Part shown: positions 28,396 through 64,000 of the stretch, piece after piece
Numbering within the stretch: the stretch's first letter is position 1
Layout: the number at the start of each line of letters is the position of its first letter
Assembly (NCBI GenBank): GCA_002900995.3
Contig: CM035307.1
Location: 806,001-870,000 of the forward strand
Source: Ganoderma boninense
Lineage: Eukaryota > Basidiomycota > Agaricomycetes > Polyporales > Polyporaceae
Reading direction: 5' to 3'
DNA: 64,000 bases
The notes under the pieces: model-generated
Told to the model about the DNA's origin: nothing
The model's database searches: none
Seen by the model: the letters and a program-made list of their open reading frames with translations, nothing else
Position numbers and translations under genes: made by a program

Positions 28396-29038
28396 CGTGC
28401 TCGCCGGTGTCTGATTAGTGTTCATCTATGATCTACGCGGTCAAGCTTGGTTTAGAGATATACTTATCACCCAGGGAGCACACACTACACACTAGAGCAT
28501 TGCATGGGAGTCTTGTGCGATAGCCACCACGTTATATTTATATTTGTACTAGTACGTCAGTACTGGAATGGACTTCGCGTATCCGTGCTTTGAAGTACTT
28601 TCCATTCCGTGGGCGCCTCCACGATCCTCGGGCGCTGAACTTGAACTTATTCAAAGTCACAGCGCCAGAAGAAGCGTCCGAGTCCCCTCTGAGCTCTGCC
28701 AGTAACCACAGCGCCATCGCCTATTATTGCTATCTAGCCACCCAAACCACAAGGTTTTCTGTTTTTAGGATCTAATCTTTTGCCATCTTGATTGCATCGG
28801 ACCGGCCCGCCCATCGACTGCGGCAGACCGCTCAGACTCACCGGCGTAGGGGAAGCAGGACTCAGTTTCGAGCCCGAAGGTCCTGGTGATGGGGCCTTTA
28901 TGGTTTGGTTACCTTGATACGGTTTCGGTCACACGTCTCTCTGTGCCCCGCAGTGGCGATGGGATAGCCTCTTGGACGATTCTACCGGGCAACGGCGACG
29001 CAGCTTGAACTAGGTGGTGTTCAGGGCCCATAGAAGGC
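28396..29038. other. ABCC 3' flank and cassette-1 promoter
   Basis: From about 28660 the sequence resembles 39535-39930 (shared CAGTAACCACAG, TCTAGCC-CC-AAACACAA and GGATC/GGTCCAATC motifs), so the duplicated unit begins here. No gene is seen. Confidence 0.5.
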
Positions 29039-29805
29039 ATGAGAGTGGTTTCACCAGCCTTCTCGACGACCCTCATGTACCCACACAAAGTACTGCTCGT
29101 TGCCGCGAGTGCGCTGGCATGCTTGACGGGGGTCAACCTCCTCACGTCGTACTTTGTGGTGGGGGTTGGAATCGCCCGGAAACCTGCAGATCGCGAGCAT
29201 AAACACAGTGCGTTCAGCTCCCAGTCCCACTCGCAATATCGTATGATATACAGTGTAACACGCTACTGACTCGCACCCTTGTCGCAGCATACACATACGT
29301 CGGCGACGACTACCCCGAGCACTGGCCGCTGCCGCCCACACCTCCCGTCGCCCTCGTCGTCGAGGACTCCTCGCACTACCCCCTCCGCGGGCCCGACGCC
29401 CGCGAGGAGTGGGCGAGCAGCACCCCGCGGGGGTTCGGGTACTTCCGCCTGGGCCCAGAGCACCGCGCGTTCACCATCTCGATGTTCCACCAGAACCACT
29501 GTCTGCGCGTGATTCGCGGCGCGCTCGGCGCGGGGGACTACCGCCCCGAGAAGGCGGCGCACGTCGGCCACTGCCTCGTGTACCTCCGCGAGATGGTGCT
29601 TTGCGCGCCGGACCTCACGCTCGAGCCGTACGATCCGCTAGACTTCGTCGCGACCGAGCGGCGGGCGGGCGCGGCCCATGTCTGCGCGGACTGGCGGCAG
29701 GTGTACGACTCGGCGTCGGACAACTGGGACGAGTGGGTGAAGGTGCGCCCTGCGGCCAAACCTAACAACGCCACCGACGCCGTCCGGCGGGCCATCTCGA
29801 CGTAG
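29039..29805 (+). CDS. UstYa-like (DUF3328) protein A1
   Basis: Two exons, 29039-29207 and 29288-29805, give 228 residues. An N-terminal membrane helix (VLLVAASALACLTGVNLLTSYF, about residues 19-40) precedes a lumenal domain with FGYFRLGPEHRAFTISMFHQNHC and later HVGHCLVYLREM. The two HxxHC motifs (HQNHC and HVGHC) are the hallmark of the UstYa family, copper-dependent oxidases that cyclise or otherwise oxidise RiPP core peptides in ascomycetes (ustiloxin, asperipin, phomopsin). The DW--VYD--S-NWD-WV segment is shared by A1-A3. Its neighbours are a second UstYa-like gene transcribed toward it and the precursor-like P1. Start chosen because it gives the membrane anchor and matches A2. Function as a peptide oxidase is inferred from family and context. 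Confidence 0.88.
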
Positions 29806-30249
29806 CCGTGCGTCGCCGTCTTTTTTCGTGCGCTAGGGGTCTGACCGAACAGAGTTCTATAGCTCCGTCATGTGGTCCTGCTGTACATTGAGGGGAGATT
29901 TCATGAGAAGGATCATGCCGCTAGAAGTAGAATTCCTTGCCTCTGTCTTCTGTCCGCAGATGACGGAATGTCATAAGACCTTCGCGCCGCAGCGTGCTTC
30001 CGCTTTAGCCGTGGTTCATCCCTAATTATATTTGGCTCTAGCTCGCGTCAATGTGTTCGTCTTGACAGCCTACAGGCTACAGAAGCCGAAGCCGGAGACA
30101 CCCGCGAAGCAACGAGATTCCAGCTCTAGTAAGCGACCAAGCATCTTACATACAGCGCACGGTAGGATCAACTTCAAGCTCCATCTAAGGCCGCAAGTCA
30201 ATGCGACCGGGTAAGATGAGATGATGAGGCTGCTCAGGCTGCTCACCGC

Positions 30250-30878
30250 TCATTCACCTCGCGCGTTGCGGGCCTGCGCGTCGTAGACCGCTGTCCAGTC
30301 CTTGCACGTCATCGTGCCCCACGGCTGGACCGCATGCGGGCCCGTTGGGTCGACCACAGGCTCGAGGCGCGTGTCCCTCCGGCACAGGACCATCTGGCGC
30401 AGGTACTGCAGGCAATGCAGGGAGACCGCGCTCGGGCCTTGTGGGGTCAGCGCCTCGCGCGCGATGTAGGCCCGCCGGACGACGTTGAGGCAGCGCAGCT
30501 GGTGGAACATCGAGATCGTGTAGGGCTCGCGGTCTTCGCCGATGCGGACGACGCCGTCGTGGGGGAAGAGCGCGGCCCACTCGGCGGCGGCGGCGGTCGT
30601 GTTGAGCTCGTAGTGGACGGTGGGCTCGAAGTACATGAGCTTGGGCGGGAGGGAGCCGATGTCCCATTGGGGCGAGGTGTTCTCGTAGATGCTACCTGTG
30701 CTCGGCGTTCACGCAGTCATTGTTTTTGTGGGGGAGAAATGGACGTACGAGCACTGTAAACGTTGTTTGAGGCCCGCCCTCTGGATCGGGAGATCATGAA
30801 TGCGAGGTATAGGACGCAAGCTATGCATGCCAGTCCGACATATGCAGTGAGCCGTCGTGTAGCTTTGGGGGAGTCCAT
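30250..30878 (-). CDS. UstYa-like (DUF3328) protein B1 with altered His motifs
   Basis: Exons 30749-30878 and 30250-30695 (minus) encode 191 residues, starting MDSPKATRRLTAYVGLACIA with a single membrane helix and ending NARGE. The lumenal domain has SIYENTSPQWDIG, YFEPTVHYELNTT, EPYTISMFHQLRCL and SAVSLHCLQYLRQMVLC. Compared with the UstYa hallmark, the first motif is HxxRC instead of HxxHC, and the second keeps only HC. This change is the same in B2 and B3, so it is fixed, not decay. Ustiloxin biosynthesis uses two UstY proteins (UstYa and UstYb) together; B may be the non-equivalent partner of A. That pairing is an inference from gene order. Confidence 0.85.
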
Positions 30879-31585: not shown

Positions 31586-31844
31586 TTAGAAGTTCTCCGG
31601 ATACCTGTCATCGCACTCAAGCTGTCGTTTCTCCATCGCATCAACTGCCGAGCCTGGGACTTCGCCATCGGTTGCACCGGCAGGGATGTCAAGCTCGTCC
31701 AAATCGCAGTTGCTTTGCGCTGAAAATGTGGGTAAACACGACAGAATTTGTGTAATGTAATGCAGATAGCCAAGTACCTGTAGCAGGCACGATGGCGACA
31801 AGGGCCAGGAGGAAGACGGCGAGGAGGTTGAATGAAAGTTTCAT
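31586..31844 (-). CDS. candidate secreted RiPP precursor peptide P1 (core QLECDDRYPENF)
   Basis: Exons 31778-31844 and 31586-31719 (minus), 58-nt intron, 66 residues. Residues 1-20 form a clear signal peptide (MKLSFNLLAVFLLALVAIVP). Then comes a leader conserved in P2 and P3, with C-x3-DELDIPAGA and VPGSAVDAM, then EKR and the C-terminus QLECDDRYPENF. KR is a standard Kex2-type cleavage site, so the last 12 residues would be released. The peptide has Cys, Tyr and Phe that UstYa-type or flavin enzymes could modify. The intron falls just after the signal peptide in all three P genes. It is not a mating pheromone: there is no C-terminal CaaX box. Its role as substrate of A/B/F is inferred from context. 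Confidence 0.85.
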
Positions 31845-32262: not shown

Positions 32263-33287
32263 ATGACTCTGCTCCGGACCCCATCCTCAGTGGAGTCTGC
32301 CTATGCCCTCTGCTACAGAGCGAAGCCGATAGCCAGGACGATGTAACCCTAGCGAGCAATGACACCCAGTCAAAAGGTGTGTTCGAATAATGAGCTTGAG
32401 ATGCAGTCGAACTGAAATAGGTCACCGTGACGAGCAGCAGACCATTGCGAAGAACGGGGTGGGCTCCTGAGGTGGCGGCTCTCCTCTTTGGTGTATTGTG
32501 CATGCGCGCTCTCACTGCTCTGCTCGGCTTTCAACATTGTCGCTCCTTGCGCTCAATCTTTTCTCTCCTCACATCCGTCCATCTCCTCCCCTCGAATACG
32601 CAAGTTCGTATGTAGGCCTGGAGGCCACTGTCCGAGACTCGTCTGCGCCCCCCCTCGGCCCAATCACCAATTTCCCGACAGGTATCGGCCAGGTCAACGA
32701 ATCCGAGCCTCACGCCGTATACTTCGACGTCCACCGTTGGTCGTCTACATTCGGCATGGTGTACCCCGAGGATCGCCGCATCCTCTCGATCTTCAACGGT
32801 ACGTCGTTTTGCATCCTGGAGCAATATATGCGCTAATCCTCGACTGCAGGAGTCGACATACATTCAGTTTTGGGCAGGGGACTTTGGGATGGAGCGATGC
32901 TCCTTGAAGTTTATGTCCCCTGCTGAGGGAGGTGTCCTCTTTCTGCTCCGGAGACTACGATGCGAGTCTGGCGCGTCGATGTACCCCGGCACGGCCTCGA
33001 CTTCCACCGCCTGTCATGGCAAACTCGTCCTCCGCGAGCTGATTCACTGGTTCGTCTCCTTGATACTGCGACACAACTCGACCGTCGAATCCGAGGAGTT
33101 CCATTGTCCGTCTGGATCTTTCCAGACGTTCGAGTTGTCATGCGCGGGCGCTGACTGCCGGGTCGACTTCCGGCAGTCGCCAAAGAAGAAGGACCTTGGT
33201 GAGTAGTATTCGAGTCACGATTATTTCGAGTTTTGGCTAATATAATTGTTGTTAGGCTTCTGGCTCGTGCAGCGGCCATCGATATGA
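32263..33287 (+). pseudogene. U1, damaged copy of the orphan type II membrane protein U
   Basis: The layout of U2/U3 is recognisable: exon 1 from ATG 32263, a membrane exon (ACALSLLCSAFN, about 32500), EPHAVYFDVHRWSSTFGMVYPEDRR, an exon beginning ESTYIQFWAGDFGMERCSL (from about 32851), and the last exon FWLVQRPSI ending 33287. Against U2 and U3 there are several one-base changes: a missing C in the CCC at 32306-32308, an extra T after AACAT near 32540, an extra base near 32790, a missing C near 32938, and a small insertion near 33040. Some could be assembly errors, but this is more than in any neighbour, so I call it a likely pseudogene. Unlike U2, the final donor GTGAGT at 33199 is intact. 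Confidence 0.65.
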
Positions 33288-34490
33288 TCATTCGCGTCTA
33301 TTCGGCGACAATCATCCTTCTCTTTTTCTAGTTCCGTATAGAAGTTGACTTGCACCCCCCATAGATGTTAGTCCTCCTTGCAGCACATTTGCACTTCCAT
33401 GGATTTGACACGATATCTACCGCAGCCTCGACTACAGTTGTCGCGGTGGACCCATGTCTTTTACTGTACGACCCTTTGAAATGTTTCTCCGCCTCCGCAA
33501 GTTGAAAAACGCGTCTTACATTGCTCCCGCATCTGTCAGACTATTTCTGGTTGCATGAACTTTGACCTCCGAATCAGAGCCCCTTTTATGCTCGGCAGCG
33601 ATACTTCCGCTGTAACTCAGTTCGCGCTCGGGTCTCTTACGGACGCTTCGCCCACTGCGACTCCCATTATAGATCATCGCAGAGCTTCGGCGGCGCCAGC
33701 ATCGAGAACCAGGACGTAATGTGGCACAAATTTTACAACCATCTGCCTACAAGCCTCAAGTTCGTCCGCACTCAACGAGTGCCGTGCATTCCGCTGCAAG
33801 GGTTTCGCGTCTGCTTTGCAACTTGCCGGTTTCTACTGGGCGCCACATGATGCATCCTGAACGCACTCTCCCCGCCACTATTCACGTTCGCTGTCTTCCA
33901 TCTAGACAAACTCTCTACGTACACTGCGCATTATTACCCTTATCCAGATGATATCCTGATTCCACGATTCTATCGCATCAGGCTCAATCAGAGCGCCTTC
34001 TGCGCCACAAGCAAAGATACAGTCGCAGTTGCGACACTCAGAGGTGAGTGCTATCAGTGCTAGACTCGGAGCGCGACGGTCACTGACAATCTGAGCTTCC
34101 TGACACGAGGCTTCCAGAGTTTCAGTTTTATTTTTTTTGCCGTATAGGCGCAATGTCTCGCTTCCTCCGTCGCCCCCGGGCTCGGCCGTGGTACTGCGAT
34201 CCCAAGCTCATCTTCAGTGGCTCATCACCGCCCGACTCGCAGCGGGCTGCGTCGGTACTAGAACCCATGGACGCATCTGTATTCCTGCAGATCAAGGATC
34301 ATGGCGGTCTGTAGGTAGGCTGTGGGGGAAAGGGACGTCCAAGACTGTTTTATAGGCCTCTGCATCGACAGTCAGTCGGTGACAGTATTCAAGTTTCCTC
34401 TCAGAGGCAGTTCTCACTCGCAACGCTTGTTACACATCCTATTCGACATTCACTTGCCGTCAAGTTGGACCGACGCGATACACTGCTACA
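33288..34490. other. spacer with traces of minus-strand segment X1
   Basis: On the minus strand, fragments resemble unit 2: YSGSIAAEHKRGSDSE (about 33570-33620) against YSGFSIAAENTRGFE, and CGAEGALIEPDAI (about 33965-34005) against CCAEGAVPVIDSDAM. They do not form an open gene here. The remainder looks noncoding. Confidence 0.35.
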
Positions 34491-36551
34491 ATGGACTCAG
34501 ATGACAGCTCGTTCATTCCTGGAACTCGCGTCGAGTTCGTAGCTGTTATGGCCACGATGGGCCTGTATGGCATTACCTGCATGCAGACGTACGTGCTTGT
34601 TTCCATCATGACAGAATTCATTCGTGTCTCCTAACCATATTGACCCTTCACAGATTTTTGTACTTTGTGCAGTGAGGACAGACCGCTCTCCCTCATCTGC
34701 GCATAACTCACGCATCTTGACAGAAACCAAAGAGGAGATCATTGGTCGCTTCCTCTCCTCGTGAGTCCAACTTCAAGATGATTCTATGACGCTGCGCATA
34801 TATAGACTGGACATTACATGTCATCCTCGAATCTCTAAGGTAGCATACCTCTGGTACGTTATGTGCTTCCTAACGGCTTCTTGATATGCGGCTCAATTGA
34901 TTGTCAGGGTTATGGACACAGTCCACCAAGTCATTACTGTCAGAGGCTGTAAGGACTTAGCAGCAGCGTTCGTGTCATGGAGAGCATGCCTGACACAAGC
35001 TCCACGATTTGCAGTCTGGGTGCTCATTTCCAGCGTCCATAACCCATTCGTACTTTCTCGGTGAGTCCGTTCCCAGCCCAACGGTGAAATGACATGCTGA
35101 CCCTTTCGTTTAATCAGGGAGTACCTCGTACGTATGTAGGACCATTCCCAAGGCTTGGCTAACATTTAGGTTGCGTACTGCAGTGGGCAGGACTTTTTAC
35201 GGGAGGTATATAGTTGGGCGCATCGGAATGTATTCAAAGATCCAAGGCTGACGCACTCGTATCTAAATCCAGAGCTTGGTCACACTGCCAACGCAGCTCT
35301 TCTTCGTCGTGCGCATCTGGCAATGTGAGTCCTGACTTTTGTCGACATCACATTGAGCTGACATTGGTTGTCGCGATTTCGTTTCAGTCGCCAACAGGCA
35401 CTGGTTCATCCCTCTGTTTTTTGTGAATTCGTTTGAGTTGCATTGTGGTTGTCCCAAGCTAACTGTGGGTGTAGGTTCCCTGTTCTATCTTCCAGCTAGG
35501 TATGCGGTGACCGCTCGTATCAATGATAATCATGATGCTGACATCTTCCATTCCCTTCAAAGGCGGGTACATTGGTGGGTACTTTCTCATATAACCCACT
35601 ATGCAAGCATTTTGACAGCATGCAGCGTTCCTCATTATATGGTAGGCCCGTGCTTAGTACGACTCGGCGATCTGATCTATTGAAGAAGTACGCGCATCCC
35701 CCAGCCTCAACGGTGGCCCAACGGCGCATATAATAGTTGTTATCGATGTACGTCGCTATTCTCCTGTCATGCTTTTGTTCCAAGCTTGCAGAGCTCATGT
35801 CATCGTCTATGCAGAAACTACCAATGGCATTTTGGGGCGTCCAGGCTGCTGAAGACATCCTGATATCCCTCACTCTCATATTCCTCCTCTGGCAACGACG
35901 TATATCGAACAGTTTCCGAAGGTACGCATGCCGGTGGAACATGATCTCATCTCCTCGTGAATAATCGACGGTCCACTCCTCTTTCCATGGACCGAGCAGC
36001 ACCGACCGGATCCTCTACCGCCTCACGACGTTCGTCATCAATACTGGGGTTTGGACCGCGCTCTGCGCCTTGCTCACCATCATTACCGTACGCCTAGCAC
36101 AATCCTCTCTAGTCATGGCAGGCGATCTCTGTGACGGTCTGAGCGTATAGATGGCCATAAATCCCAATTTCGAACTTTACGTGTCGCTCAACCTAGTGGT
36201 GTGTCCCCTATACTGCAACACGCTCCTCGCAAACTTGAATGCAAGGGCATTCATCCGGGGAGAGAGGTTCACCGAGCCATCCGCGAACACGTTGACTCGC
36301 TCCGGGCCCTCAGCGGCTTTTGGCCGCCTCACACAGTCAGGTTCAGAGGTTCGTCTTGGGCCTCGAGCTCTTCATTCGCCATCTTCTAGAAAGGGTCTGT
36401 ACTGATGGCTCGTTCACGGTGTAGCACTCGCGGAGGGCTGGGGAGGGAAGCTCCCGTACCGATGTTATCGAGCTGTCCGGGGCCGACCTTCGCGAATAAC
36501 TCGAACTTCAAGTTGGGCGAAACGACGATCGAGGACGGTTATTCTGTATGA
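34491..36551 (+). CDS. DUF6534-type multi-pass membrane protein T1
   Basis: Starts MDSDDSSFIPGTRVEFVAVM and runs through about 12 short exons to TGA 36549-36551. Membrane helices can be read in order: TMGLYGITCMQTFLYFV, LLVAYLWVMDTVHQVITV, LWVLISSVHNPFVLS, SLVTLPTQLFFVVRIWQF, HWFIPLFFV, AFLIIW, then GVQAAEDILISLTLIFLLWQ, and the hallmark block LYRLTTFVINTGVWTALCAL followed by YVSLNLVVCPLYCNTLLANL. That last block is the DUF6534 domain, very abundant in Agaricomycetes and of unknown function; the seven-helix layout is receptor- or sensor-like. The C-terminal tail has ELSGADLREXL-like and KLGETT segments shared with T2 and T3. It is convergent with F1. Confidence 0.8.
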
Positions 36552-36842
36552 ACAGGACGCGGCCTTTGTCCCTCTCGAAGTGTGTCTGGACGCAAGCAAT
36601 GCCATGTGTTACGCTGAAGTTACCTGCTGGTCATAACACGAATATGAAACGCGATGCTTTCCAGTCCGCTTCCACTCGATCCTTGCTCGTCGCCTATGCA
36701 CCTCTCCATGCACTGTTCAGCACGCACAAGTAAAAAGACTCGCCTCGCCAATGTGCGGCCACAGGCCATGATACGAAGAAGCCGCGACAATATAGTTCAA
36801 AGAAACTACAAACTAGACCTAGACATAAATGAGTACACGGCG

Positions 36843-36874: not shown

Positions 36875-39091
36875 TCACGTCTGCTTCGCCCGCTTCGCAT
36901 CGCGCTCCTCCTTCAAATGACCGATCTCCTTCAGGTCGACGACCTTGAACGGCCACGTGAGCGCGTTCCCCCCGCTCCGCATGATCGGGAGCCCTAGGTC
37001 CTCGAGCAGGTCGTCCGCGTGCTGCGGCCACCTAAGCAACGACAGGATGAAAGAACGGGCAACGCAAGGTCCGTCAGAGGAAGGTAACAGCAGAATCAAA
37101 GCAGAGTCGGAGACGTACGACCAGAACGCGAGGTAGCTCGTATGGCTGTTGTTCAGCGCGGTCGGGATCTGCGGGTAGCGCGCGCGCAGCCACGCCGCGT
37201 CGCGCTCCGTCGCCGCGAGCGCGTCCTCGGGCGTCGCGGGCAGCCGCAGCGCAGCGTCCCCGAGGAAATAGGACGAGATCCAGTGCGATGCGACCTCGGT
37301 GGTGTAGCCGAAGTTCGGCGAGATCTATGCGGCGGGCGTGAGGGGATGAGGCACATGCACGACTAATGCTACTGCATGCCATGGGACGTACGACTGCGCC
37401 GTTGACTGCGAAATCGCGACGGCCGATGTGTTTCGCGGGGACCATTCCGCGGTATAGGCCCGACGACCAGGCCTCCGCGTCCGGGTGCAGAGGAGGGGCA
37501 TCAGCGAGGGTTGTATACTTCCACTGATGCCCAATCGACTCGTTCGTTGCAGGCTGAGGGCCCAACCCCAAGTCGTCAATGGTCTGAGCTGAAAGTCACT
37601 TTAGTTCCAAACGCGCTACTTGAGCATTTATTCATACCATCGAACATTGCAGGCCATGACGACGCGTATCCAGTGGCGATAATGACAGCGCTGGCGGGGA
37701 GAGTCCTCCCGTCATCCAAGATGACCGAATGCCCATCTTGACCATAGCCCGTGGAGCGGGCGGGGCAGACAACGTCAATTTTTCCCGCAACTGCGAGTGA
37801 GTGAAAACCATTTGCGCGAGGCACTCCCTCGTCGTTCACACGAGTATGCCAGTAGGGCAGCACTGTGCGACGCAGTGGCGAGTCAGCAGGAATACCTGTG
37901 GCCTGATACTGCAAGGACGTGCTTTGTAAGAATCGGACGGCGGGGATGGTGCAACAATGGAACAACTTGAATGGACGCACAGCATTTTGGGCGAGACCAT
38001 ACCACCAGAAGTCCACTATCTTCTTGCCGAACCAGGTGGTGTGTAAGAAGCGCCTAACTCTGTTGTAAGTCGAATGGCAACCGTAATGCGACGCATATAC
38101 GTACTCAAGACTGGTGCGAAGATGTATGTGCGGCGAGAACAGCGAGAGCAACCTAGGTTATCGTAAGTACAAGGATAAACTGTCTTATGAACTTCGATGG
38201 AGCTTACCTGCTCCTCCGGATGAAGTCCGGCAGGGGCTTTGGACCAGAGGTAAACGCATTCAAGTCAGGGCACACCATGGTGACTTTCCGGCCTTCATTC
38301 GCAAGATACGCGCATATATCCTGCGCGGACTTCCCTCCGCCGATGATGACGATAGGCGCAATCTCGGTGTGGGGGTTGGACGCGACGGCGGGGACGGACG
38401 CCAGAAGCTCTTGCATCTTCGCGCCGAAGTCGACACTGTGGAACACCATGCCGCGGAACCCGGCCGAGGCTGCAGCAGCCGAGCTGAGGTACTCGGGAAC
38501 AAAGCCGGTATTGCAGCCCTGCGAAAGGAGATGAGCTGAAATGTAGAGGAGCGAAAGGTGAATCGGAGACGAACCCCAGTGCAGAGCACAAGACGGTCGT
38601 AGATTCTCGTCTCCTGGACGGAGGTGTCGCGGTGCACCACGTCGAGCTGCCAGCCTGCCCCGGCCGGGTTGCGCTGGATGTGGCGCACGTCCAGGCCGTA
38701 CTGGATCTTGCCCTGGAGGAACTTGGACGCGAATGCCGTCATGTAGGCGTGCATGTCCTCGCCGCCGATGCGCGCGTCTGAGCCCTCGACGAGAGGCGGC
38801 ATCTCCATGGGGGACAGGCGGTATTCGCCATGCACACTGTGCGACGTGCTCAGCGAGTGCAGGGAGTGTGTGGGGGGGAAGATTGGGACTGCAGTGACAT
38901 ACTTACTTGTTGAGAAACAGCCCGGGGTATATGCGGTCCTTGCTCCATACTCCTCCCGCCTCCAAATCTCGAGTCAGGAGCTGGACGTGGAACCCATCTC
39001 TAAGGAGGGTGTAGGCGGTGATCAAGCCCGCCACGCCAGAGCCAACGACCGCAACCGTGCCGGCGCGTGGGTCGCTCCGCTGAGAGGTCAT
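36875..39091 (-). CDS. FAD/NADPH-dependent monooxygenase F1 (FMO-like)
   Basis: Read from ATG 39091 to TGA 36875-36877 through about eight exons, all frames joining cleanly. The N-terminus has the FAD-binding VAVVGSGVAGLITAYTLL (GxGxxG) followed by TRDLEAGGVWSKDRIYPGL. The middle has IIGGGKSAQDICAYLANEG, the second Rossmann motif expected to bind NADPH, then VIIATGYASSWPAMFDG, the ATGY motif of flavin monooxygenases. The C-terminal part includes KYTTLADAPPLHPD and ends DAKRAKQT. FMO-type enzymes oxygenate soft nucleophiles such as S and N; in the ustiloxin pathway two such enzymes (UstF1, UstF2) oxidise the peptide side chain. All three P cores contain one Cys, a plausible target. The gene converges on T1 and is divergent from A2. 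Confidence 0.88.
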
Positions 39092-39932: not shown

Positions 39933-40675
39933 ATGAGAGTGGTTTTGTCCGCCGTCTCGAAGACACTCATGCACTCTCACACAGCACTCCTCGTTGCAAC
40001 CAGTGTGCTTGCATGCTTGACGGGGGTCAACCTCCTCACGTCATACTTTGCCGTGCGGATAGGTACCGCTCACAAGCCTGCTCAGCACAATCACAGTGCG
40101 TTCAGCTCTCAATATCTATATTGTACAATACAAGACTGCTGACTTGCATCCTTACCGCTACTGTAGCATACGTCAGCGACGACTACCCCGAGCACTGGCC
40201 TTTGCCGCATACAGATCCCGTCGCCCTCGTCGTCGAGGATTCCTCGCACTACCCCATCCTCGGCCCAGATGCCCGCGAGGAATGGGCCAGTAGCACATCA
40301 AGGGGATTTGGGTACTTCCGCCTGGGCCCGGAGCACCGCGCGTTCACCATCTCGATGTTCCACCAGAACCACTGTCTCCGCGTCATTCGCAGCGCCCTCG
40401 CGGGGGACTACCGCCCAGAGAAGGCGGCGCACGTCGGCCACTGCCTCGTGTACCTCCGCGAGATGATCCTCTGCACTCCGGACCTCACGCTGGAGCCACA
40501 CGACCCGCTAGAGCGCGACTTCGCCGCAGAGCGGGTCGGCGCGGTTCATGTTTGCGATGACTGGCGACAGGTGTACGACGTGTCGTCCAGAAATTGGGAC
40601 GATTGGGTGAAGGTACGCCCGGTTGCCAAACCGAAGAATGCCATGAAGACCGGTACGCAGGCCACCCCGACGTAG
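39933..40675 (+). CDS. UstYa-like (DUF3328) protein A2
   Basis: Exons 39933-40095 and 40167-40675 encode 223 residues. The same N-terminal anchor as A1 (LLVATSVLACLTGVNLLTSYF), then TYVSDDYPEHWPLPH, FTISMFHQNHCLRVI and HVGHCLVYLREMILC. Both HxxHC motifs are intact. Compared with A1 it differs mainly in the region after the membrane helix and in the C-terminal tail (KTGTQATPT). Intron position and phase are the same as in A1. Its product is expected to be a membrane-anchored oxidase facing the secretory lumen, acting on the P2 core by analogy with UstYa. Confidence 0.88.
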
Positions 40676-41242: not shown

Positions 41243-41864
41243 TCATTCCCCCCGCGCGTTGCGAGCCTGCACGTCGTAAATCGCAGTCCAATCTTTACAA
41301 GTCATCGTGCCCCACGGCTGCACTGCATGCGCGCCCGTCGGGTCGACCACGGGCTCTAGCCGCGTGTCCCTCCGGCAGAGGATCATCTGGCGCAGGTATT
41401 GCAGGCAATGGAGGGAGACCGCGCTCGGGCCCTGTGGGGTCAGTGCCTCTCGTGCGACGTAGGCACGCCGGATGACGTCGAGGCAGCGCAGCTGGTGGAA
41501 CATCGAGATTGTGTAGGGCTCGCGGTCTTCGCCTATGCGGACGACGCCGTCGTAGGGGAACAGTGTAGCCCATTCGGCGTCGGAAGCGGTCGTGTTGAGC
41601 TCGTAGTGGACGGTGGGCTCGAAGTACATGAGCTTGGGGGGGAGCTCGCCGAGGTCCCACTGGGGCGAGATGTTCTCGTAGATGATACCTGTGGTCACCA
41701 TTAACGTGGCTGCTGATTTTTTGTGGGGGAGAAAAGGACGTACGAGCATCGTAAAGCGTGGTTGAGGCTCGCCCTGATCCGGTGAAGGCGAGGAATAGTA
41801 CACAGGCCATGAATGCCAGTCTCACATACGCAGCGAGTCTCCGTGTAGCTTTGAGGGAGTCCAT
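41243..41864 (-). CDS. UstYa-like (DUF3328) protein B2 with altered His motifs
   Basis: Exons 41744-41864 and 41243-41688 (minus), 188 residues. Starts MDSLKATRRLAAYVRLAFMA with one membrane helix. The lumenal part has IIYENISPQWDLGELPPKL, YFEPTVHYELNTTASDAEW, HQLRCLDVIRRAYVAREALT and SLHCLQYLRQMILC. As in B1 and B3, the first HxxHC is HxxRC and the second lacks its leading His. The membrane segment is three residues shorter than in B1. The gene is convergent with A2 and lies about 630 bp from P2. Confidence 0.85.
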
Positions 41865-42491: not shown

Positions 42492-42739
42492 CTAGAAGTT
42501 CGCCATGTCGCACTCAAGCTGACGTTTCATCGCGTCGACCGCTGTGCCTGGCACATCGCCATTGCCAGTTGCACCGGTAGGGATGTCAAACTCGTCCAAG
42601 TCGCAGCTTTGTTGTGCTGTGAGTGTCTGTGAACACAACGAAAATTTGCAGATCATAAAAATAATTAAATACCTGTAGCAGGAGCGATGGCGACAAGGCC
42701 CATGAAGAACACGGTAAAGAGGGAGAATGATAGCTTCAT
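42492..42739 (-). CDS. candidate secreted RiPP precursor peptide P2 (core QLECDMANF)
   Basis: Exons 42673-42739 and 42492-42616 (minus), 56-nt intron, 63 residues. Signal peptide MKLSFSLFTVFFMGLVAIAP; leader with C-D-L-DEFDIPTGATG and GDVPGTAVDAM; then KR and the nine-residue C-terminus QLECDMANF. The leader is nearly the same as in P1, but the sequence after the shared QLEC differs and is shorter: MANF replaces the DRYPENF end of P1. There is no Tyr in this core, so if UstYa-like chemistry occurs the cross-link must use other residues. No stop or frame problem is seen, and splice signals are canonical. Confidence 0.85.
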
Positions 42740-51248: not shown

Positions 51249-51993
51249 ATGCACGCACAATCAGCACTCCTCGTCGCCGCCAGCGCGCTGGCCTGCCTGA
51301 CGGGGGTCAACCTCCTCACCTCGTACTTCGTCGTGCGGACCGGGACCGCCCACTCAAGCCCGCCGAGCATCACTACAGTGCGTCCTCTCTCCCCATTCCA
51401 TCAACCTCCGCCCCCCCTCACGCACACCCCTCTCCGCGCTGGAACTGACCGCAATCCACAGCCTACGTCGGCGACGACTACCCCCCGCACTGGCCTCTCC
51501 GCCCTCGCCCCCGCGCGCGCTCGTGGCCGAGTCCTCCGCGCACTACCCGCTCTCGGGGCCCGACGCGCGCGAGGAGTGGGCGACGGGCACGCCCAAGGGG
51601 TTCGGGTACGTGCGGCTGGGGCCCGAGCACCGCGCGTTCAGCGTGTCCATGTTCCACGAGGGGCACTGCATGCGCGTCCTGCGCGACGGGCTCGCGGGCA
51701 ACTACCGGCCCCAGACCGTCACGCACATCGGCCACTGCCTCGTCTACCTCCGCGAGATGATCCTCTGCGCGCCCGACCTCACCCTCGAGCCGCACGACCC
51801 GCTCGACCCCGCGCGCGACTTCACGGGCACCGGCCGCGTGGGCGCGGCGCATGTGTGCCAGGACTGGGAGCAGGCGTACGAGGGCTCCGCGCGCAACTGG
51901 GAGGAGTGGGTCCGGGTGCGGCCCAGCGCGGCGGCGAAGCCGGGCAACAATAACGCGACGTCGCATGTCGCTCCGAAGAGTCCGTTGATGTGA
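51249..51993 (+). CDS. UstYa-like (DUF3328) protein A3, two one-base frame breaks
   Basis: Exons 51249-51377 and 51462-51993. N-terminal anchor LLVAASALACLTGVNLLTSYF as in A1, then YVGDDYPPHWPL, YVRLGPEHRAFSVSMFHEGHCM and HIGHCLVYLREMILC. The two HxxHC motifs (HEGHC, HIGHC) are kept. The frame needs one extra A in AA at 51356-51357 (before the intron) and one extra C in CC at 51499-51500; with these the protein matches A1 and A2 throughout. Since the catalytic part is fully conserved, base-call errors are a better explanation than gene death. The N-terminus lacks the MRVV-type extension of A1 and A2. The tail reads KPGNNNATSHVAPKSPLM. Confidence 0.8.
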
Positions 51994-52207: not shown

Positions 52208-55042
52208 CTAGCGTGTGTAACTGCGCTGAGTTTTGGACACACGGTGGATTCCCCGCCGCCCCCGACGTCTTTCCGCGGCGCCTGTCGAGCTTGCACATGA
52301 ATCACAATCGCGAGTTGAGAGTTGATTGAGAGTGCGTGTTGGACGGTGTAAAGTGATGGCACTAGTACTAGCTATCAATCTCTTCTTCTCCCCATCAGAG
52401 GACTTCGTCTCCGGTACGGCAGCTGGCTCCGGACGAGAGAGCGGATGGCTAGCCACGAGCAAGGAAAGCAGGAACCCAACACCCAGCAGACTAGTGACCA
52501 GAATCCTGGAAGAGAAAGACAGCGTGAGCTTCGACGTCCGTACAGTAGGATGGAAGCGCTCACCATATATCCGATACACTGAGAGCATACGCATGCATGA
52601 CTGCACGACGCAGGCTCTCAGGCTTTGGAAACAAAACCAGGTATCAGATTGGGCATGTCATAGGAGATTCGTCGAAAGGGAGTGTGGAGCGCTGACACTG
52701 ACCTGTATGCTATCCAGACCCCGGAGATCGTCGACGCTGAGCTGCCCGCTAGTGTCATATCCGGGGAGCGAGGCCGTCCTCGCTTTGACCTCGTTCGTGA
52801 GGATGGTGTCGCCGACAGTGACGCCGATGGCGGAGCCGACGAGCCTTTGCCGCGAGTGAGCTCCAGGGTGCATCTTACGACTAGGAGAGATAGAGAGAGA
52901 GAAATGGACATACCGGAGGAGCATGAACGCCGCCGAGGATGCCGCCATCTCCGCAGGGGGCATCGTAGCATGGAGAGCTGAATGGAGCCCAACCCAATTC
53001 GAAGGTAGTTCAGAGTTAGTCGCGAGCCAGTGCCCGGGCGAAGCTGTCCCCGGGAGAGCTGAGAGACACGAACCAATCAAGGGCACCTGGAACAGACCGC
53101 CAATCCCCGCTCCAGCGATGATGATGTAGAGCTCTTGAAGGCCACTGGATGACGAGTTCCACAACCACTATGTAGTCAGCCGGAAAAATCAGCCACAGGC
53201 GGGCGAAACGGGCACGTACACGGGAGTGCGCTCGTCCGCCATGATGAGTAGGCCCTGTCGAGGACGCAAGCATGAGCGCCGGGGCACGATATCTATCAAT
53301 ACAAGCATGGAGCTCACATAACCGACAGCAGCGACCGCCCACGACACCCAAATCACAGGCCTGTACCCGACGCGCGTCGTGGTGACGAGGCCCGCGACGG
53401 AGCCCGTGACGGACGAGACGAGGCTGTAGCCCATCGTGCGCACGCCCGCGCCCGTCGCGTCGACGCCCTGGAGCTGGAAGTACACGGGGATGTAGTAGCT
53501 GCCCGCGAAGAGCGCGAGGCCGTGGAGCGCCGCCCCCAGCAGCACGGCGCTGGCGGTGCGCGTGCGGAAGAGGCGCGGGGGCACGATTGGGATGCGGCTC
53601 GTGAGGCACTCGTAGAGGGCGAAGGCGAGCGAGAGGACGCCCCCGAGGACGAGCAGGGTGATCGTCGCCGGGGCGGACCAGGCGGTCTTGCCGAGCTGGA
53701 GGCCGACGAGGAGGCAGGCGACGCCGGCGACGATGAGGAAGAGGCCGACGAAGTCGAAGTTGTGCAGCGCTTCGGCGAGGGTTTTCTTCGGGGCGGGTTT
53801 GAGGCGGAGGAAGACGAGGACGGCGCTGGCTAGTACGCCGCCTACTGGGAGGTTCTGTTGCGCGGTGCTCAGAGCTTAGAGTCTTTACGCGAAGTCAGCC
53901 AGGACGTTCGGCACTTACGATGTAAAAGCACCATCTCCAAGACACCTTATCCGCGAACACTCCACCAATCTGAATAACAAACATGAGAAATAGGACTTGT
54001 ATGCGCTCGAGAGCACGCACCGTTGGCCCAATCACGCTTGCAGCGCCCCATACGGTTCCGACCAAGCCGATGTATATTCCTCGACGTGCCAGAGGGGCTG
54101 GAGTACACTGAGCGTCGAACAATCGCTCGAGAACCACCAAAACACTCACTGACGTCCGAAATGGCGATCATGCTCAAGGTGATGATACCGGCTCCGCCTG
54201 CGCCCTGGACGCCACGGCCTGAAGCTGAGGTCAGTATCCGAGGTTCCTTGTCTTCTCACCGAGAATACTCACAGATTGCAAGCCAAGTTATGTTCGTCGC
54301 CGCACCACACAGCGCAGAACCGAGCAGAAAAAGCAGCCAGGTTGCCATGAACACTGGCTTGCGTCCGAGGACATCCTGTTGCACCCCACAGGATTAGCTC
54401 AAGTTTCAACATGCGCAGGAGGAAGCTTGATATATTACCGAAAGTCTGCCGTAGAATGGGGAGCAAGCTGGTTACGAACACCACTGAATTGAGCGCGTCT
54501 TTTCTCCAAAGCGTCGATGAACACTAACCCGCACTCCCTAATATATGCATGCCTGAATGAACTTACTGTTGAATAGCAGAAAGGATGTAAGACGCACCAA
54601 GTAGATATGCTGCTCCAATCCAGCTGTAGCCTCCCGCACCACCGATGTCCTCAACAATGGTGGGCAGCGCAACAGCGGTGATAGTCTGGTCCAGCGCTGG
54701 CATGAAAACTGTGCAAGCGTCGTTCGGTGCTGCACACAACCGCCACATTCCATACGCATAACTCACTGCCCAACAAGATCCTGAGATTTAGTCCCTGCAG
54801 TAAGGAAAGAGCTAGTATATGCTATATGCTACACCGAATGGACTCACGTAGGGACGACTATTCGTAAGTTGCTGAAAGGCCCATCAACTGCAAAGCCGGA
54901 AGAGCAGGCCACTATGGACTGACTTGTGCGGCGCTGCGGCCGGTGCGGGATGCGTTGTCGTCATACTAGGCTGTGACTTTTCTGGGTCGTCCAGATTGTC
55001 AGCTTGAAGCGTCCGGTCAAGTGTCCCAGCATCGCTTCTCAT
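52208..55042 (-). CDS. MFS transporter, DHA2-like (14-helix drug:H+ antiporter type)
   Basis: Minus-strand gene with many introns from ATG 55042 ([20 protein letters not shown]) to a stop near 52208; the 3' end is uncertain. Recognisable order: [20 protein letters not shown] with [66 protein letters not shown], a paired-helix central part ([16 protein letters not shown]), [20 protein letters not shown] then [26 protein letters not shown], then [20 protein letters not shown] and [16 protein letters not shown]. These are standard landmarks of the DHA2 family that exports toxins and secondary metabolites. It occurs only in unit 3, between A3 and B3, which suggests it exports a product of this locus or arrived by insertion. 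Confidence 0.83.
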
Positions 55043-55760: not shown

Positions 55761-56395
55761 ATGGACTCCCCCAAGGCTACACGACGACTCACTGCGTATG
55801 TCGGATTGGCATGCATAGCCTGCGTTCTATCCCTCGCATTCATGATCTCTGGATCCAGAGGGCGGGCATCAAACAACGTTTACAGTGCTCGTACGTCCTT
55901 TCCTCCCCCGCAAAAACAGTGACCGCGTTAACGCCGACCACAGGTAGCATCTACGAGAACACAACGCCCCAATGGGACCTCGGCGAGCTCCCTCCTAAGC
56001 TCATGTACTTCGAGCCCACCGTCCACTACGAGCTCAACACGACAGCCGCCGACGCCGAGTGGGCCGCGCTCTTCCCGTATGACGGCGTCGTCCGCATCGG
56101 CGACCCGGAGCACCGCGAGCCGTACACGATCTCGATGTTCCACCAGCTGCGCTGCCTCGACGTCATCCGGCGGGCCTACGTCGCGCGCGAGGGCCTCACC
56201 CCACAGGGCCCGAGCGCGGTTTCGCTGCACTGCCTGCAGTATCTGCGCCAGATGGTCCTGTGCCGGAGGGACTTGCGCCTCGAGCCCGTCATCGACACGG
56301 AAGGGCCGCATGCAGTCCAGCCGTGGGGCACGATGGTGTGCAAGGACTGGACGGCGGTTTACGACGCGCAGGCTCGCAATGCGCGGGGTGAATGA
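55761..56395 (+). CDS. UstYa-like (DUF3328) protein B3 with altered His motifs
   Basis: Exons 55761-55890 and 55944-56395, 193 residues, no frame problem. N-terminus MDSPKATRRLTAYVGLACIA is almost identical to B1, then NTTPQWDLGELPPKL, YFEPTVHYELNTTAADAEW, EPYTISMFHQLRCLDVIRRA, SLHCLQYLRQMVLC and NARGE at the end. The HxxRC and xHC motif forms are as in B1 and B2. It carries two extra residues in IGDPEHREPY. The gene is on the opposite strand to B1 and B2, so the block A3-B3 has been rearranged, with the MFS gene between them. Confidence 0.86.
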
Positions 56396-56974: not shown

Positions 56975-57228
56975 TCAGAAGTCGGTCCCGGTACACCGCT
57001 TCCTCATCGCGTCGACCGCCGAGCCCGGGACGTCGCCGTCGATGCCGGACGCGCCCGTCGGGATGTCGAGCTCGTCGGGGGAGCACTCGGGGCCGTCTGG
57101 CGTGGGCACGTAGTGAGTATATGCTACAGAAGAGGGGACACAGGCAAGTGCTTACTCGTGGCGGGTGCGGGTGCGGCGGCGACGACGCCGAGGAGGATGG
57201 CGGCAAGGAGGGCAAACGAGAGCTTCAT
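56975..57228 (-). CDS. candidate secreted RiPP precursor peptide P3 (core CTGTDF)
   Basis: Exons 57156-57228 and 56975-57096 (minus), 59-nt intron, 64 residues. The nearer acceptor at 57124 would give a 32-nt intron; the 57097 acceptor is preferred because its length and phase match P1 and P2. Signal peptide MKLSFALLAAILLGVVAAAP; leader with C-S-P-DELDIPTGASG and GDVPGSAVDAM; then RKR and the six-residue C-terminus CTGTDF. The leader is the best-conserved part between units, while the core shares only the Cys and the final Phe with P1 and P2. This is the usual pattern for RiPP precursors: recognition sequence kept, product sequence free to change. Confidence 0.83.
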
Positions 57229-58251: not shown

Positions 58252-59439
58252 ATGCTTTTCCCAACGTCGACGTCGTCTCCGGCTTCAAGCTTAAGTTCTG
58301 CGTACGTGCCGCTCCTGCGCGGCGACCCCGACAGCCAGGACGACGTCACCCTACTTGAGCACGATGACCAGTCAAAGGGTACGTGCCAGCGACGCAACCA
58401 CAGTCGAACGCTGAAACGAGGTATGCTGAAACCAATCTCTTGCCACCCCCAGAGCGCAGCAAAGAGCACACTAGTGCTGGCAGCGTGAAGCACCGCCTCT
58501 CCCCAATGGTGTACTGGGCCTGCGCCCTCTCGCTGCTCTGCTCGGCCTGCAACATCTCCCTCCTCGGGCTCAACGTCCTCTCTCCCACCGCGCGCCCCGC
58601 GCCGCCGCTCGCGTACGGCAACTCGTACGTCGGCCTCGAGGCGACCGTGCGCGACCCGTCCGCGCCGCCGCTCCGCCCGATCACCACGTTCCCGACGGGC
58701 ATCGCGCAGGTCAACGCGTCCGACCCCCGCGCGGTGTACTACGACGCCCACCGGTGGGCGTCGACGTTCGGGACCGTGTACCCCGAGGACCGCCGCGTCC
58801 TCGCGTCCTCCACGGTGCGTAGCCCCTCATCCCATCCCGTCCCGTCCCGTCCCATGCTGCCCGCGTGATGTAGATGTCCTGTGTTCGCTGACGCGCGCCC
58901 ACACCGGCTGCTGCTCGCAGGAGGCGACGTACATCCAGTTCTGGGCGGGGGACTTCGGGATGGAGCGCTGCGCCCTGAAGCTGCTGCTCCCGTCCCTGTC
59001 CCTGTCCCCCTCCGACTCCTCCGAGTCTATCCACGACGACATCGTCCTCCCGGACTCCCCAGACACCGCGCTGCAAGTCTGGCACGTCGAGACCGACACA
59101 CCCGGGCTCGACTTCCACTCCCTCTCGTGGCGCAGCCGGCCCGCGCGGGGGGCGCTCCTCGCGTCGTGGGTCCTGCCCAGCAACGGCAACGGCAACGCGA
59201 CGCTGGAGTCGGAGGTGTTCCGCTGCCCGTCGGGCTCGTTCCAGGCGTTCGAGCTCGCGTGTGTGGGGAGGGGGTGCCGGGTCGACTTTAGGCAGACGCC
59301 GAAGAGGAAGGATCTTGGTGCGCATCTCTCTATCTGGCTTCGATGGTTCTGGTTCTTCGGCGGTGGGGAGAGTTTTCTGATGCTTGCTAACTTGCTATCA
59401 CTGTTAGGATTCTGGCTCGTGCAGCGCCCGTCCATATGA
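58252..59439 (+). CDS. U3, orphan type II membrane protein (intact)
   Basis: Exons 58252-58378, 58453-58814, 58921-59317 and 59408-59439 join without frame problems to 305 residues. Cytosolic N-terminus (MLFPTSTSSPASSLSSAYVP, LLRGDPDSQDDVTLLEHD), a membrane helix at about residues 60-80 (MVYWACALSLLCSACNISLL), then a lumenal domain with RPITTFPTGIAQVNASDP, HRWASTFGTVYPEDRR, YIQFWAGDFGMERCAL, LQVWHVETDTPGLDFHSLSW, CPSGSFQAFELACVGRGC and the end FWLVQRPSI. It has a Ser/Asp-rich insertion (LSLSPSDSSESIHDD) that U1 and U2 lack. Best reference for the family. I recognise no known domain; the Cys and Trp conservation indicates a folded extracytosolic domain. Confidence 0.82.
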
Positions 59440-60944: not shown

Positions 60945-63035
60945 ATGGACGTCTCCTCGTTCATTCCGGGAACTCGCATCGAGTTCATAGCCGTCATCGC
61001 TACGACCGGCCTGTATGGCATTACTTGTATGCAGACGTACGAGCTTCCCGCTTTCTTAATTGCGATATTTGGATAGTATCCTGACCGAGCTGTTTTCCTA
61101 CAGGTTTTTGTACTTCGTACGGTGAGCACAGAGTGCACGCGTACTGCTCGCCTGCACCCAGCTCATATGTATCGAAGGCAAACAAGGGACCACTGGTCGC
61201 TCCCTCTCCTTGTGAGTTGCTTGTCATTATTTCAAAAAGACTGCGCCTGAGCGGACCATTGATTCCAAATACTGCAGGTTGCATACCTTTGGTATGTAGT
61301 CCTACCGGCGCTCTATCTCCGTTCGCTGTGGTGCTCAGTCTACATGGCAGGATTATGGACACAGTCCACCTAGCTCTCACCGTTCGAGGATGTAGGGTTC
61401 TACACGCTGTTCTCCGGCCGTGTAGACATGCTGACAGTGGCGTCGCCGCGTTGCAGTCTGGGTTCTCATTTCGGCCGTACATGATCCATTCGTGCTTTCT
61501 CGGTGAGTTTCGTCTAGGCCCATCCATCGATGGTTGGACTAGCACGCTGATACTTCTCATCTTTGTCAGGGAATATCTTGTAAGCCCGAGTGCACGAAAC
61601 GTTTCTATGGGGTTGCCCGACTAACGGCTATCTTCCGTGCCGCAGTGGGCAGGACTTTTTACGGGGAGTCAGTTTAAGTATATCTAGCCGATATCAAGCT
61701 AACTCCATACCAAACATTAGAGCTTGGTCACGCTGCCGACGCAACTATTTTTCATCATGCGCATATGGCAATGTGAGTATTGCATTCTCTCTCTCTCTTG
61801 CTCTCAGCGTCGGAACGAACTGAGCTGGGACCTTCAGTCAGTAACAGGCACTGGTTTGTCCCGCTGTTCTTTGTGAGTTTTGAGATTCAAGAGCTTCCAA
61901 GTTACCTGAGGCTAATCGTGGCGTAGATCCCCCTATCGCTCTTCCAGCTAGGTATGTCGGCAGTCTGTCCTCGATGAGCTCACCATTAATCGCGTCACTT
62001 CTTTCGCGAAGCGGGATACATTGGTAGGCAATTTTATCATGCAGCCTACACTGCAGTTATGTTGACGCATCGTAGCCTTCCTTGTTATATGGTAGGTACA
62101 CGCAGTCGAAGTGATACAAGCCTAAGGCATTAAACCGCTGTATACCTCTGCCAGCCTCAACGGTGGCCCCACGGCGCATATCATATTCGTCATTGAGGTA
62201 CGCCATTCACCGTATTTCCTCTCATCGGCGTCCCAGAGCTCATAATGGCGCGCATACAGAAACTCCCCATGGCGTTCTGGGGCGTCCAGGCCGCCGAGGA
62301 CGTCCTCATCTCGCTCACCCTCATCTTCCTCCTCTGGCAACGGCGCATCTCCGACGGCTTCCGCAGGTACGCCTTCCATCATGGAACTGGAACTTGAAGC
62401 TTGAAGCCTCGCAAGACTCACTCAGGCTCCTCCTGCTTGCACAGCACCGACCAGCTCCTCTACCGCCTCACCGTGTTCGTCATCAACACCGGGGTCTGGA
62501 CGGCGCTCTGCGCGCTCTTCACCATCATCACCGTAAGTCCTCGTGCATCTATATATGCGCGAGCTCGGCATAGCATGGGAGCTAACGCTGGCGTATGGCA
62601 CTGGCAGCTGGCGGCGTACCCGAACGTCCAGATCTACGTGTCGCTCAACTTCGTGGTGTGCCCCCTGTACTGCAACACGCTCCTCGCGAACCTGAACGCG
62701 CGCGGGTTCATCCGCGGGGACAACTACACAGAGCCGTCGTCGAACACGCTCACGCGCCCCTCGGTCACGTTCGGGCGCATCGCGCAGTCCGGCTCAGACG
62801 TGAGTGTTGTCCTCCGCTCCCTCACCCCTCCGGGTTTTTTCAGAGACGGATGGACGCGTGCTGACGGCGTGTTGATGGTGGTGATATGCCACTGCAGCGC
62901 ACCCGGAGAGGAGGCATGAACGGGAGCTCGCACACGGACGTGCTCGAGCTGTCTGGGCCGACGTTCGCGAACAACTCCAAGATCAAGCTGGGGGAGACGA
63001 CGATGGGGAGCAGCTATTCCGATGTCGGGATCTGA
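60945..63035 (+). CDS. DUF6534-type multi-pass membrane protein T3
   Basis: Starts MDVSSFIPGTRIEFIAVIAT and ends SSYSDVGI with TGA at 63033-63035. Exons parallel T1 and T2: FLYFVR, TRDHWSLPLL, VAYLWIMDTVHLALTVRGC, FVLSREYLWAGLF, SLVTLPTQLFFIMRIWQ, HWFVPLFF, GVQAAEDVLISLTLIFLLWQ, then the DUF6534 block (LYRLTVFVINTGVWTALCAL, YVSLNFVVCPLYCNTLLANL) and the tail HTDVLELSGPTFANNSKIKL. The tail motif is shared across the three units (ELSG-ADL/PTFANN), so it is under constraint. Role unknown; seven-helix topology suggests a receptor-like protein. Confidence 0.82.
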
Positions 63036-63371
63036 ATAGGAAGAGGAAGAGGAAGGATCGGGATCTCTCTGGATTGTGGTGTGCACTGTGGATATGCATG
63101 TGGGTGTAGCTAGCGCTGTTTCCGGTGTGCAGGATGTATCGTGTATGATGTTGGGCTGGGAGGTATCTATTGATTATGATTATAGTACGCAATACGTTCT
63201 TTTCCAGCGGGACCTCTTGCTTGGCCGATCCCATGATATCCTCGTCCGCGTCCCCAAGCACCCTGAAGCAAAATTTGAGCCGTGTGAGGAGCTGATAAGA
63301 AATGGCGGAACGGGCAGGAGGAGCAAAGCAGCATCCCGCTCTCCACTTTCCACCTCCTTCACGAGCCCATA

Positions 63372-64000
63372 TCACAGACGTGCACTCGAAGCCGACTTCC
63401 ACCCGACCCGCGCCCGCCGCCGCGCGTCCCGCTCCTCCTTCAGCCCAGCGAGCTCCTTGACCTGCACCACGCGGAACGGCCAAGTGAGCCAGCTCCCGCC
63501 ACTGCGCATCACCCCCAGCCCCATGTCCTCCAGGAGGTCGTCCGCGACCTGCGGCCAACTACATACGCCCGAGTCAGGACACTCCGAAGAAGAAAAAAGA
63601 AAAAAGAAAACGAGAAGGGAAACTCACCCCCAGAAGCCGATGTTGCTCGTGTGGCTGCCGTTCGCCGTCGGGGCGACCTGCGGGTAGCGGCGGCGCAGCC
63701 ACGCGGCCTGGCGCTCTGTCTCCTCCAAGGCCGCTTCGGGCGTCGCGGGGAGGCGCATGCGGGCGTCCCCGAGGAAGTAGGACGAGATCCAGTGCGCGGA
63801 GACTTCGAGCATGTAGCCGAAGTGCGTCGAGAACTACATATATGATAGAGGGAGGGAAAGTGATGGGAGAGCGGGCCAGGATAGTCGGTGTCAGGTAAGC
63901 CTAGTGCGCAGATGGGCTGAGGGGGGAGGGGGAGGGACGTACGACGGCGCCGTTGGCTGCGAGGTCGCGGTGCAGGATGTTCTTTGCCGGGACGATCCCC
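63372..64000 (-). CDS. FAD/NADPH-dependent monooxygenase F3, C-terminal part
   Basis: Stop at 63372-63374; the gene continues past the right window edge. Minus-strand exons match the C-terminus of F1 and F2: ILHRDLAANGAV (63945-63990), FGYMLEVSAHWISSYFLGDA then RMRLPATPEAALEETERQAA (63650-63830), and WPQVADDLLEDMGLGVMRSG to KEERDARRRARVGWKSAS. The tail is longer and different from F1/F2 (ending SSARL). Convergent with T3 as in the other units. The FAD and NADPH motifs are expected beyond position 64000. Confidence 0.83.

Follow-up and report, generated by a model that had tools for sequence, protein, structure and literature searches.

Three tandem gene units in Ganoderma boninense suggest a UstYa peptide system with single-core secreted precursors

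We analysed a stretch of 64,000 nucleotides of the Ganoderma boninense genome (the window; assembly GCA_002900995.3, 55.6 Mb, contig CM035307.1 or C4, C4:806001-870000), in which six genes occur three times in tandem: A and B, two UstYa-family genes; P, a short precursor-like peptide; U, a But2-like membrane protein; T, a DUF6534 gene; and F, a flavin monooxygenase (FMO). We consider it probable that these units form a basidiomycete UstYa system for ribosomally synthesized and post-translationally modified peptides (RiPPs), in which a secreted precursor with a single core is modified by A and B and released by Kex2, and which was multiplied by tandem duplication.

The evidence centres on P. 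Each of its three genes has two exons, with a phase-1 intron directly after the signal peptide, and encodes 63-66 residues that start with MKLSF, continue through a leader around CDLDELDIPTGATGDGDVPGSAVDAM and then reach a dibasic KR. Hydropathy and inspection by eye showed in P1-P3 the hydrophobic N-terminus of a signal peptide for the endoplasmic reticulum (ER). What follows KR differs among the copies: QLECDDRYPENF in P1, QLECDMANF in P2 and CTGTDF in P3. A leader and enzymes that are kept next to a core that varies are the usual sign of a RiPP precursor. Among 5.77 billion proteins the only P match was GSI_01252 of Ganoderma sinense (61 residues, core CVGVDF), in a search that needs shared five-residue words and annotated genes; P3 resembles this protein more than it resembles P1 or P2. 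In all four sequences a Kex2-type KR precedes the core, the core ends in Phe preceded by Asp or Asn, and there is one Cys in the leader and one in the core. Each precursor holds one core, not the repeated cores of dikaritins or of Kex2-processed repeat proteins (KEPs). No Pfam domain was found in P, and its signal-peptide-like start sets it apart from borosins and cycloamanides, whose precursors are described as cytoplasmic and processed by an S9 oligopeptidase; this negative concerns P, and no search for N-methyltransferase or oligopeptidase genes was made. A mating pheromone precursor of the CaaX type was ruled out by the signal peptide and by the lack of a CaaX end, the defining trait of that type. 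Victorin is described as using its C-terminal Phe in a cross-link (PMC9233826), and a similar use of the final Phe of the P cores would be, by analogy, a guess.

The units share the gene order A-B-P-U-T-F and extend from the start codon of A1 at base 29075, rather than from 28640 as the initial annotation had placed it, to beyond base 64000. Units 1 and 2 are 75% identical in DNA across 7.4 kb, and unit 3 aligns with both in blocks of 62-87% identity. All six A and B genes matched PF11807 (UstYa) and all three T genes matched DUF6534, so that DNA alignment and domain matches agree with the earlier claim of six families present three times in one order. Two companion claims stood in part: orientation is common to most genes, with B3 (plus) inverted relative to B1 and B2 (minus), and a common exon plan was found for A, B and P, while F1 was fully modelled and F2 and F3 were compared with it exon by exon. 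An MFS transporter of the TRI12 type lies between A3 and B3, in unit 3 only. The features are, in window positions and with approximate spans for T:

29075-29805, plus: A1, canonical UstYa (HQNHC ... HVGHC), exons 29075-29207 and 29288-29805
30250-30878, minus: B1, Arg-type UstYa (HQLRC ... VSLHC), exons 30749-30878 and 30250-30695
31586-31844, minus: P1, precursor, 66 residues, exons 31778-31844 and 31586-31719, predicted core QLECDDRYPENF at 31586-31624
32464-33288 (approximate), plus: U1, But2-like membrane protein copy with indels, probable pseudogene
35150-36560 (approximate), plus: T1, DUF6534 gene
36875-39091, minus: F1, flavin monooxygenase, nine exons, 569 residues
39969-40675, plus: A2, canonical UstYa, exons 39969-40095 and 40167-40675
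41243-41864, minus: B2, Arg-type UstYa, exons 41744-41864 and 41243-41688
42492-42739, minus: P2, precursor, 63 residues, exons 42673-42739 and 42492-42616, predicted core QLECDMANF at 42492-42521
43517-44330, plus: U2, But2-like membrane protein, last-exon junction uncertain
46230-47640 (approximate), plus: T2, DUF6534 gene
47962-50139, minus: F2, flavin monooxygenase, compared exon by exon with F1
51249-51993, plus: A3, canonical UstYa motifs (HEGHC ... HIGHC), frame shifted in its first half in the assembly
52620-54300 (approximate), minus: MFS transporter, TRI12-like, unit 3 only, PF06609 match within the open reading frame (ORF) 53189-53875
55761-56395, plus: B3, Arg-type UstYa, inverted relative to B1 and B2, exons 55761-55890 and 55944-56395
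56975-57228, minus: P3, precursor, 64 residues, exons 57156-57228 and 56975-57096, predicted core CTGTDF at 56975-56995
58485-59438, plus: U3, But2-like membrane protein, start codon uncertain
61590-63050 (approximate), plus: T3, DUF6534 gene
63438-64000, minus: F3, flavin monooxygenase, last part, continuing to about C4:871692

Some copies are damaged. Compared with U2 and U3, U1 contains several frame-breaking indels and is probably a pseudogene; A3, as assembled, is out of frame with A1 and A2; and F3, which extends about 1.7 kb past base 64000, has one junction near its GGGKSAQ motif that is either an extra intron or a shift. These defects would fit a decaying tandem array with a single working unit, in which the remaining copies are relics and the cores vary by drift. 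We nevertheless judge this explanation quite unlikely, as the P and B models are open in all three units, F1 is complete and the P cores retain their final Phe after Asp or Asn. Furthermore, the pairwise ratio of nonsynonymous to synonymous change (dN/dS), taken over all aligned codons, is well under 1 for P (0.19-0.31), for B (0.16-0.18) and for A1 against A2 (0.28). Since units 1 and 3 each hold a damaged gene, the earlier idea that each unit makes its own peptide may need enzymes shared among units.

The association of P with its neighbours extends to a second species. In G. sinense, U, P and B are the consecutive genes GSI_01251, GSI_01252 and GSI_01253, on a contig of 4,262,535 bases. In the searches made, the closest protein relatives came from Ganoderma and other Polyporales, and B and U matches shared a contig for 6 of the 13 U matches, namely in G. 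sinense, Dichomitus squalens (288282), Cerioporus squamosus (30784), Trametes cingulata (644017), Pilatotrama ljubarskyi (548383) and on one more contig (15988); equal contig size was taken to mean the same contig, one of the 13 U matches came without a size, and the B matches were the best 120 of 138 listed. Within G. boninense, the P leader found four places, all adjoining B: the three units and contig C21. The 32 stretches matching F at E 1e-4 also lie only in the units and C21, and seven of the eight loci found with U2 are within 10 kb of a UstYa gene, the eighth (C11:2141547) being about 31 kb from the nearest one. As the units are duplicates, these counts do not represent independent events. 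P homologues free of such neighbours, which the initial annotation had held to be incompatible with its proposal, did not appear at the scale of this one genome, where no P was found without an adjoining B. The C21 locus (C21:1-20000, on a 64-kb contig) holds another version of the part of unit 3 behind A3; its five aligned pieces are 88-96% identical to unit 3, and its P protein is identical to P3. Relative to the window, C21 carries about 7 kb of extra DNA (C21:10915-17897) at base 61925, which falls within the approximate span of T3. C21 may represent the other nucleus of a dikaryon.

This linkage bears on another explanation, in which P is an ordinary Kex2-processed secreted peptide (a signal, a defence peptide or an effector-like one), perhaps made of two chains that a disulphide between leader and core holds together, and the UstYa proteins act on another substrate. 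The two Cys of P, one on either side of KR in all four known sequences, would be in keeping with it, as would the description of the Agaricomycete Kex2-processed peptides detected so far as linear and minimally modified (PMC9769878). However, P adjoins B and is near U in two species, it was not found away from B in its own genome, and secreted peptide genes are also present at some other UstYa loci; we regard this explanation as unlikely.

The two UstYa genes are of different types. PF11807 has 19 matches in the genome, one per place, and a canonical A is paired with an Arg-type B at six loci. At C11a, C11b and C11c, an A-type and a B-type gene are accompanied by a U-like gene. A carries HxxHC ... 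HxxHC at all six (HQNHC/HVGHC and variants), which are the two HxxHC motifs expected of a dikaritin UstYa protein, and B carries HxxRC ... xxxHC at all six. The dikaritin pathway uses UstYa plus UstYb, the second being expected to have the motif type of the first; B belongs to PF11807 but, with its HxxRC, is not a second protein of that type. At the further UstYa genes of C12a and C6, HxxHC ... HxxHC was found in four of five, the fifth not being parsed. Among the relatives of B, 116 of the best 120 were scored by pattern, giving 115 H..RC and one H..QC; in 115 of the 116, neither the fourth-place His of motif 1 nor the first His of motif 2 is present, and the remaining one keeps the latter. 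The constancy of HxxRC arises partly by selection, because the search was seeded with B and the shared words may include the motif. Many of these relatives are metagenome proteins, and the named ones we take to be basidiomycetes.

A midpoint-rooted UstYa tree of 27 rows (17 of the genome's 19 places and 10 of the 120 relatives) placed A and B in separate groups. Within both groups C11c branches outside C11a and C11b, a match that suits joint inheritance of the pairs. The three B copies of the cassettes group together in the protein tree, apart from the B of G. sinense, with B1 and B2 joined at 95/89. Synonymous distances, in contrast, make B1-B3 the closest pair (0.30, against 0.43 for B1-B2 and 0.55 for B2-B3); the corresponding values for P are 0.49 (P1-P2) and 1.49 (P1-P3). 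B3 is inverted, and its synonymous distance to B1 is smaller than that of P3 to P1; this suggests that B was copied or homogenised among the units at a later time.

DUF3328/UstYa proteins have been described as binuclear copper enzymes with the motif HxxHC(x)nHxxHC and, in one of them, CctR, activity was lost when conserved His and Cys residues were changed to Ala, and each monomer bound two coppers (PMC12435403). By analogy with those mutants and that copper binding, A would be expected to work as a normal copper oxidase and B, on its own, would not. We infer that A and B form a heterodimer. A PDB sequence search with the B-type UstYa returned no relative (one chance-level match).

We propose the following route. 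P would enter the ER and lose its signal peptide, and the conserved leader (consensus CDLDELDIPTGATGDGDVPGSAVDAM) would present the short C-terminal core to luminal, membrane-anchored UstYa proteins. There A, a copper oxidase with both HxxHC motifs, would cross-link or oxidise the core, and B, the Arg-type UstYa, would be its obligate partner. Kex2 would then cleave after KR and the modified core would be secreted, with U as a putative membrane-anchored luminal partner and F as a cluster-private FMO that would tailor the product. Tandem duplication would have multiplied the set; purifying selection would have preserved the leader and the enzymes, and the core would have diverged in both length and sequence.

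Regarding U, three proteins from Ganoderma and Trametes were compared with the cut-off of But2 (PF09792): two passed narrowly and the one from G. sinense fell short. Two C11 copies also passed, and a PDB sequence search with U gave no related solved structure (one chance-level match). F matched several FAD-binding families, PF00743 (FMO-like) being one of them, and roughly its first 180 residues matched FMO structures. The association of F put forward in the initial annotation held for the three cassettes and C21 and failed for the other UstYa loci, as no match for F or T was obtained at those of C6, C11 and C12 at 1e-3. Being private to the cassettes, F likely tailors their product and would not be part of a general UstYa toolkit. 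A, B and F could also tailor a non-peptide or non-ribosomal product, with P a bystander: F is of a general FMO type, and the DUF3328 enzyme CctR tailors cyclochlorotine, which is non-ribosomal (PMC12435403). We hold this to be very improbable, given that P is conserved and linked in two species and that no synthase was found among the unit ORFs scanned against Pfam, which were some of the ORFs.

T was rejected as a specific part of the system. DUF6534 is a large family with 39 matching stretches dispersed across the genome (some perhaps in one gene), of which 4 lie in the cassettes or C21 and none at the UstYa loci of C6, C11 and C12; T is probably an incidental neighbour that was carried along. 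A fixed six-gene cassette across UstYa loci was rejected as well, F and T not having been found at those three contigs' loci. The earlier proposal of a basidiomycete RiPP system is supported in part: it fits the signal peptide, leader, dibasic site and variable core of P and the U-P-B set of G. sinense, and loses T.

Some of the other UstYa loci carry candidate small secreted peptide genes with one early intron. At C11c, two candidate pairs flank the UstYa and U genes (C11:2268127+, 2269561+, 2278945- and 2280315-). The inner pair shares D.DH.V.DA.WLSV.G.RR or a close variant and seems to have either a second intron of only 33-37 nt or differences in frame; of its three genome matches, two lie at C11c and one lies close to the end of contig C23. 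The outer pair shares a signal peptide and GAP..ARDG. C12a has three tandem peptide genes (C12:1534653+, 1535758+ and 1542090+), plus one more; the three share a signal peptide (MRGLLAI...AAYGAP) and differ afterwards, and all three genome matches of the family are there. C6 has one candidate secreted peptide gene, and a more distant U-like gene is nearby at both C12a and C6 among the matches listed. Trp-Leu-Ser or a similar sequence occurs in several candidates and, in two or three, precedes a dibasic site (for example DAIWLSVNGRR and DIGWLSRR). Some of these picks lean towards P, because the motif filter was taken from P. A stricter scan of 116 kb around UstYa loci gave 15 matches, of which 3 are membrane anchors of A and some look spurious, and it missed P2; the same scan of 86.5 kb of control DNA gave 5 matches, 2 of them relatives of a C12 UstYa-locus peptide and 4.7-5.8 kb from it.

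Several of our observations weigh against a RiPP system of this kind. Indeed, U1 is disrupted and A3, as assembled, is frame-shifted; two Cys per P would also suit a plain disulphide-linked secreted peptide; and repeated cores, which the literature gives as the usual dikaritin trait (PMC7329392, PMC9769878, PMC12048977), are absent from P. The full six-gene cassette is not general, since no match for F or T was found at the UstYa loci of C6, C11 and C12. At the other UstYa loci, precursor modelling yielded one ambiguous candidate at C11a and none at C11b and C12b, and the peptide gene models are hand-made and uncertain, with candidates picked by eye. The first scans for spliced secreted peptides returned 9-29 candidates per locus, mostly noise, and the comparison with control DNA is crude, suggestive and no significance test.

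Among known systems, the cassettes most recall (in signal-peptide precursors with a dibasic cut, UstYa-family (DUF3328) proteins and flavin monooxygenases) the dikaritins of Ascomycota, that is, ustiloxin, phomopsin, asperipin-2a and victorin; the ustiloxin cluster contains a flavin monooxygenase. They differ in being from a basidiomycete, in their single non-repeated core, in having one UstYa protein with HxxRC and in U as a regular neighbour, and the P cores lack the Y-x-I-x pattern described for dikaritins. By the older description of dikaritins, the cassettes miss repeated cores and their second UstYa departs from the motif. Under the wider 2021 definition, quoted in PMC12048977, in which a DUF3328 protein is the class-defining enzyme, they could be included once P is shown to be a substrate.

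KEPs of Agaricomycetes are likewise described as secreted, dibasic-cut mushroom precursors (PMC9769878, PMC7329392), but are defined by repeats, which P does not have. As described, the survey method needs repeats, so that P would be missed by it. That survey reports 103 of 1680 Basidiomycota KEPs near DUF3328 genes, and proposes that the cyclisation motif differs in Basidiomycota or that cyclisation of Kex2-processed peptides hardly occurs there (PMC7329392); the Agaricomycete KEP peptides detected are described as linear (PMC9769878). The lichen RiPP clans R1 and R2 have UstY genes and possible signal-peptide/Kex2 precursors without repeats, for which the authors name a single core as one possibility; in contrast to the cassettes they are from ascomycetes, their signature genes carry both HxxHC motifs and, as presented there, the precursor is not settled (PMC12048977). 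A resembles CctR in the HxxHC(x)nHxxHC motif and a hydrophobic N-terminal stretch, but CctR is reported to be a homodimer acting on a non-ribosomal peptide, whereas the cassettes encode two unlike UstYa proteins together (PMC12435403). In Pleurotus, 16 UstYa-like genes, six of them developmentally expressed, are linked to dikaritins only "probably" (PMC8893723), and mushroom genome papers use the term "fungal-RiPP". In the open PMC literature we noticed no single-core precursor paired with UstYa in a basidiomycete and found no paper on UstYa genes of Ganoderma, on But2 together with DUF3328 or on DUF3328 together with a heterodimer, the last three absences being weak.

The cassettes place a defined precursor next to a defined pair of UstYa genes and, with their conserved leader and naturally varying cores, they offer a direct test substrate and make the role of UstYa enzymes testable in mushrooms, where such genes abound. 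The consistent HxxRC type raises a mechanistic question for a family whose copper chemistry was described in 2025 (PMC12435403). We put forward tentatively, as possible rather than probable, that the cassettes belong to a distinct mushroom RiPP class, marked by an obligate canonical A with an Arg-type B (two of the four copper-ligand His missing), a But2-like luminal partner, U, and locus-private, single-core, hypervariable secreted precursors. In such a class B would be one half of a heterodimer, either non-catalytic or guiding the substrate; the class might be widespread in Agaricomycetes and invisible to repeat-based mining.

Finally, transporters and other membrane proteins occur near these genes. 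An ABC transporter lies immediately upstream of unit 1 (window 24791-28037, plus, two ORFs with ABC_tran matches) and could be an exporter or a plain neighbour. On C11 there is a spread array (C11:2040893-2420418) of a family that looks multi-membrane-spanning and lacks a significant Pfam match, with one more copy on C9; the array's span includes three UstYa/U sets and the lone U gene at 2141547. Such membrane proteins near UstYa loci might be receptors for the peptides, but on C11 the family forms an array of its own. On C6, the UstYa pair lies between two MFS-like transporter copies (C6:2555737-2556405, minus, and 2567392-2568910, plus) that are oppositely oriented, contain near-identical stretches and resemble the transporter of unit 3.

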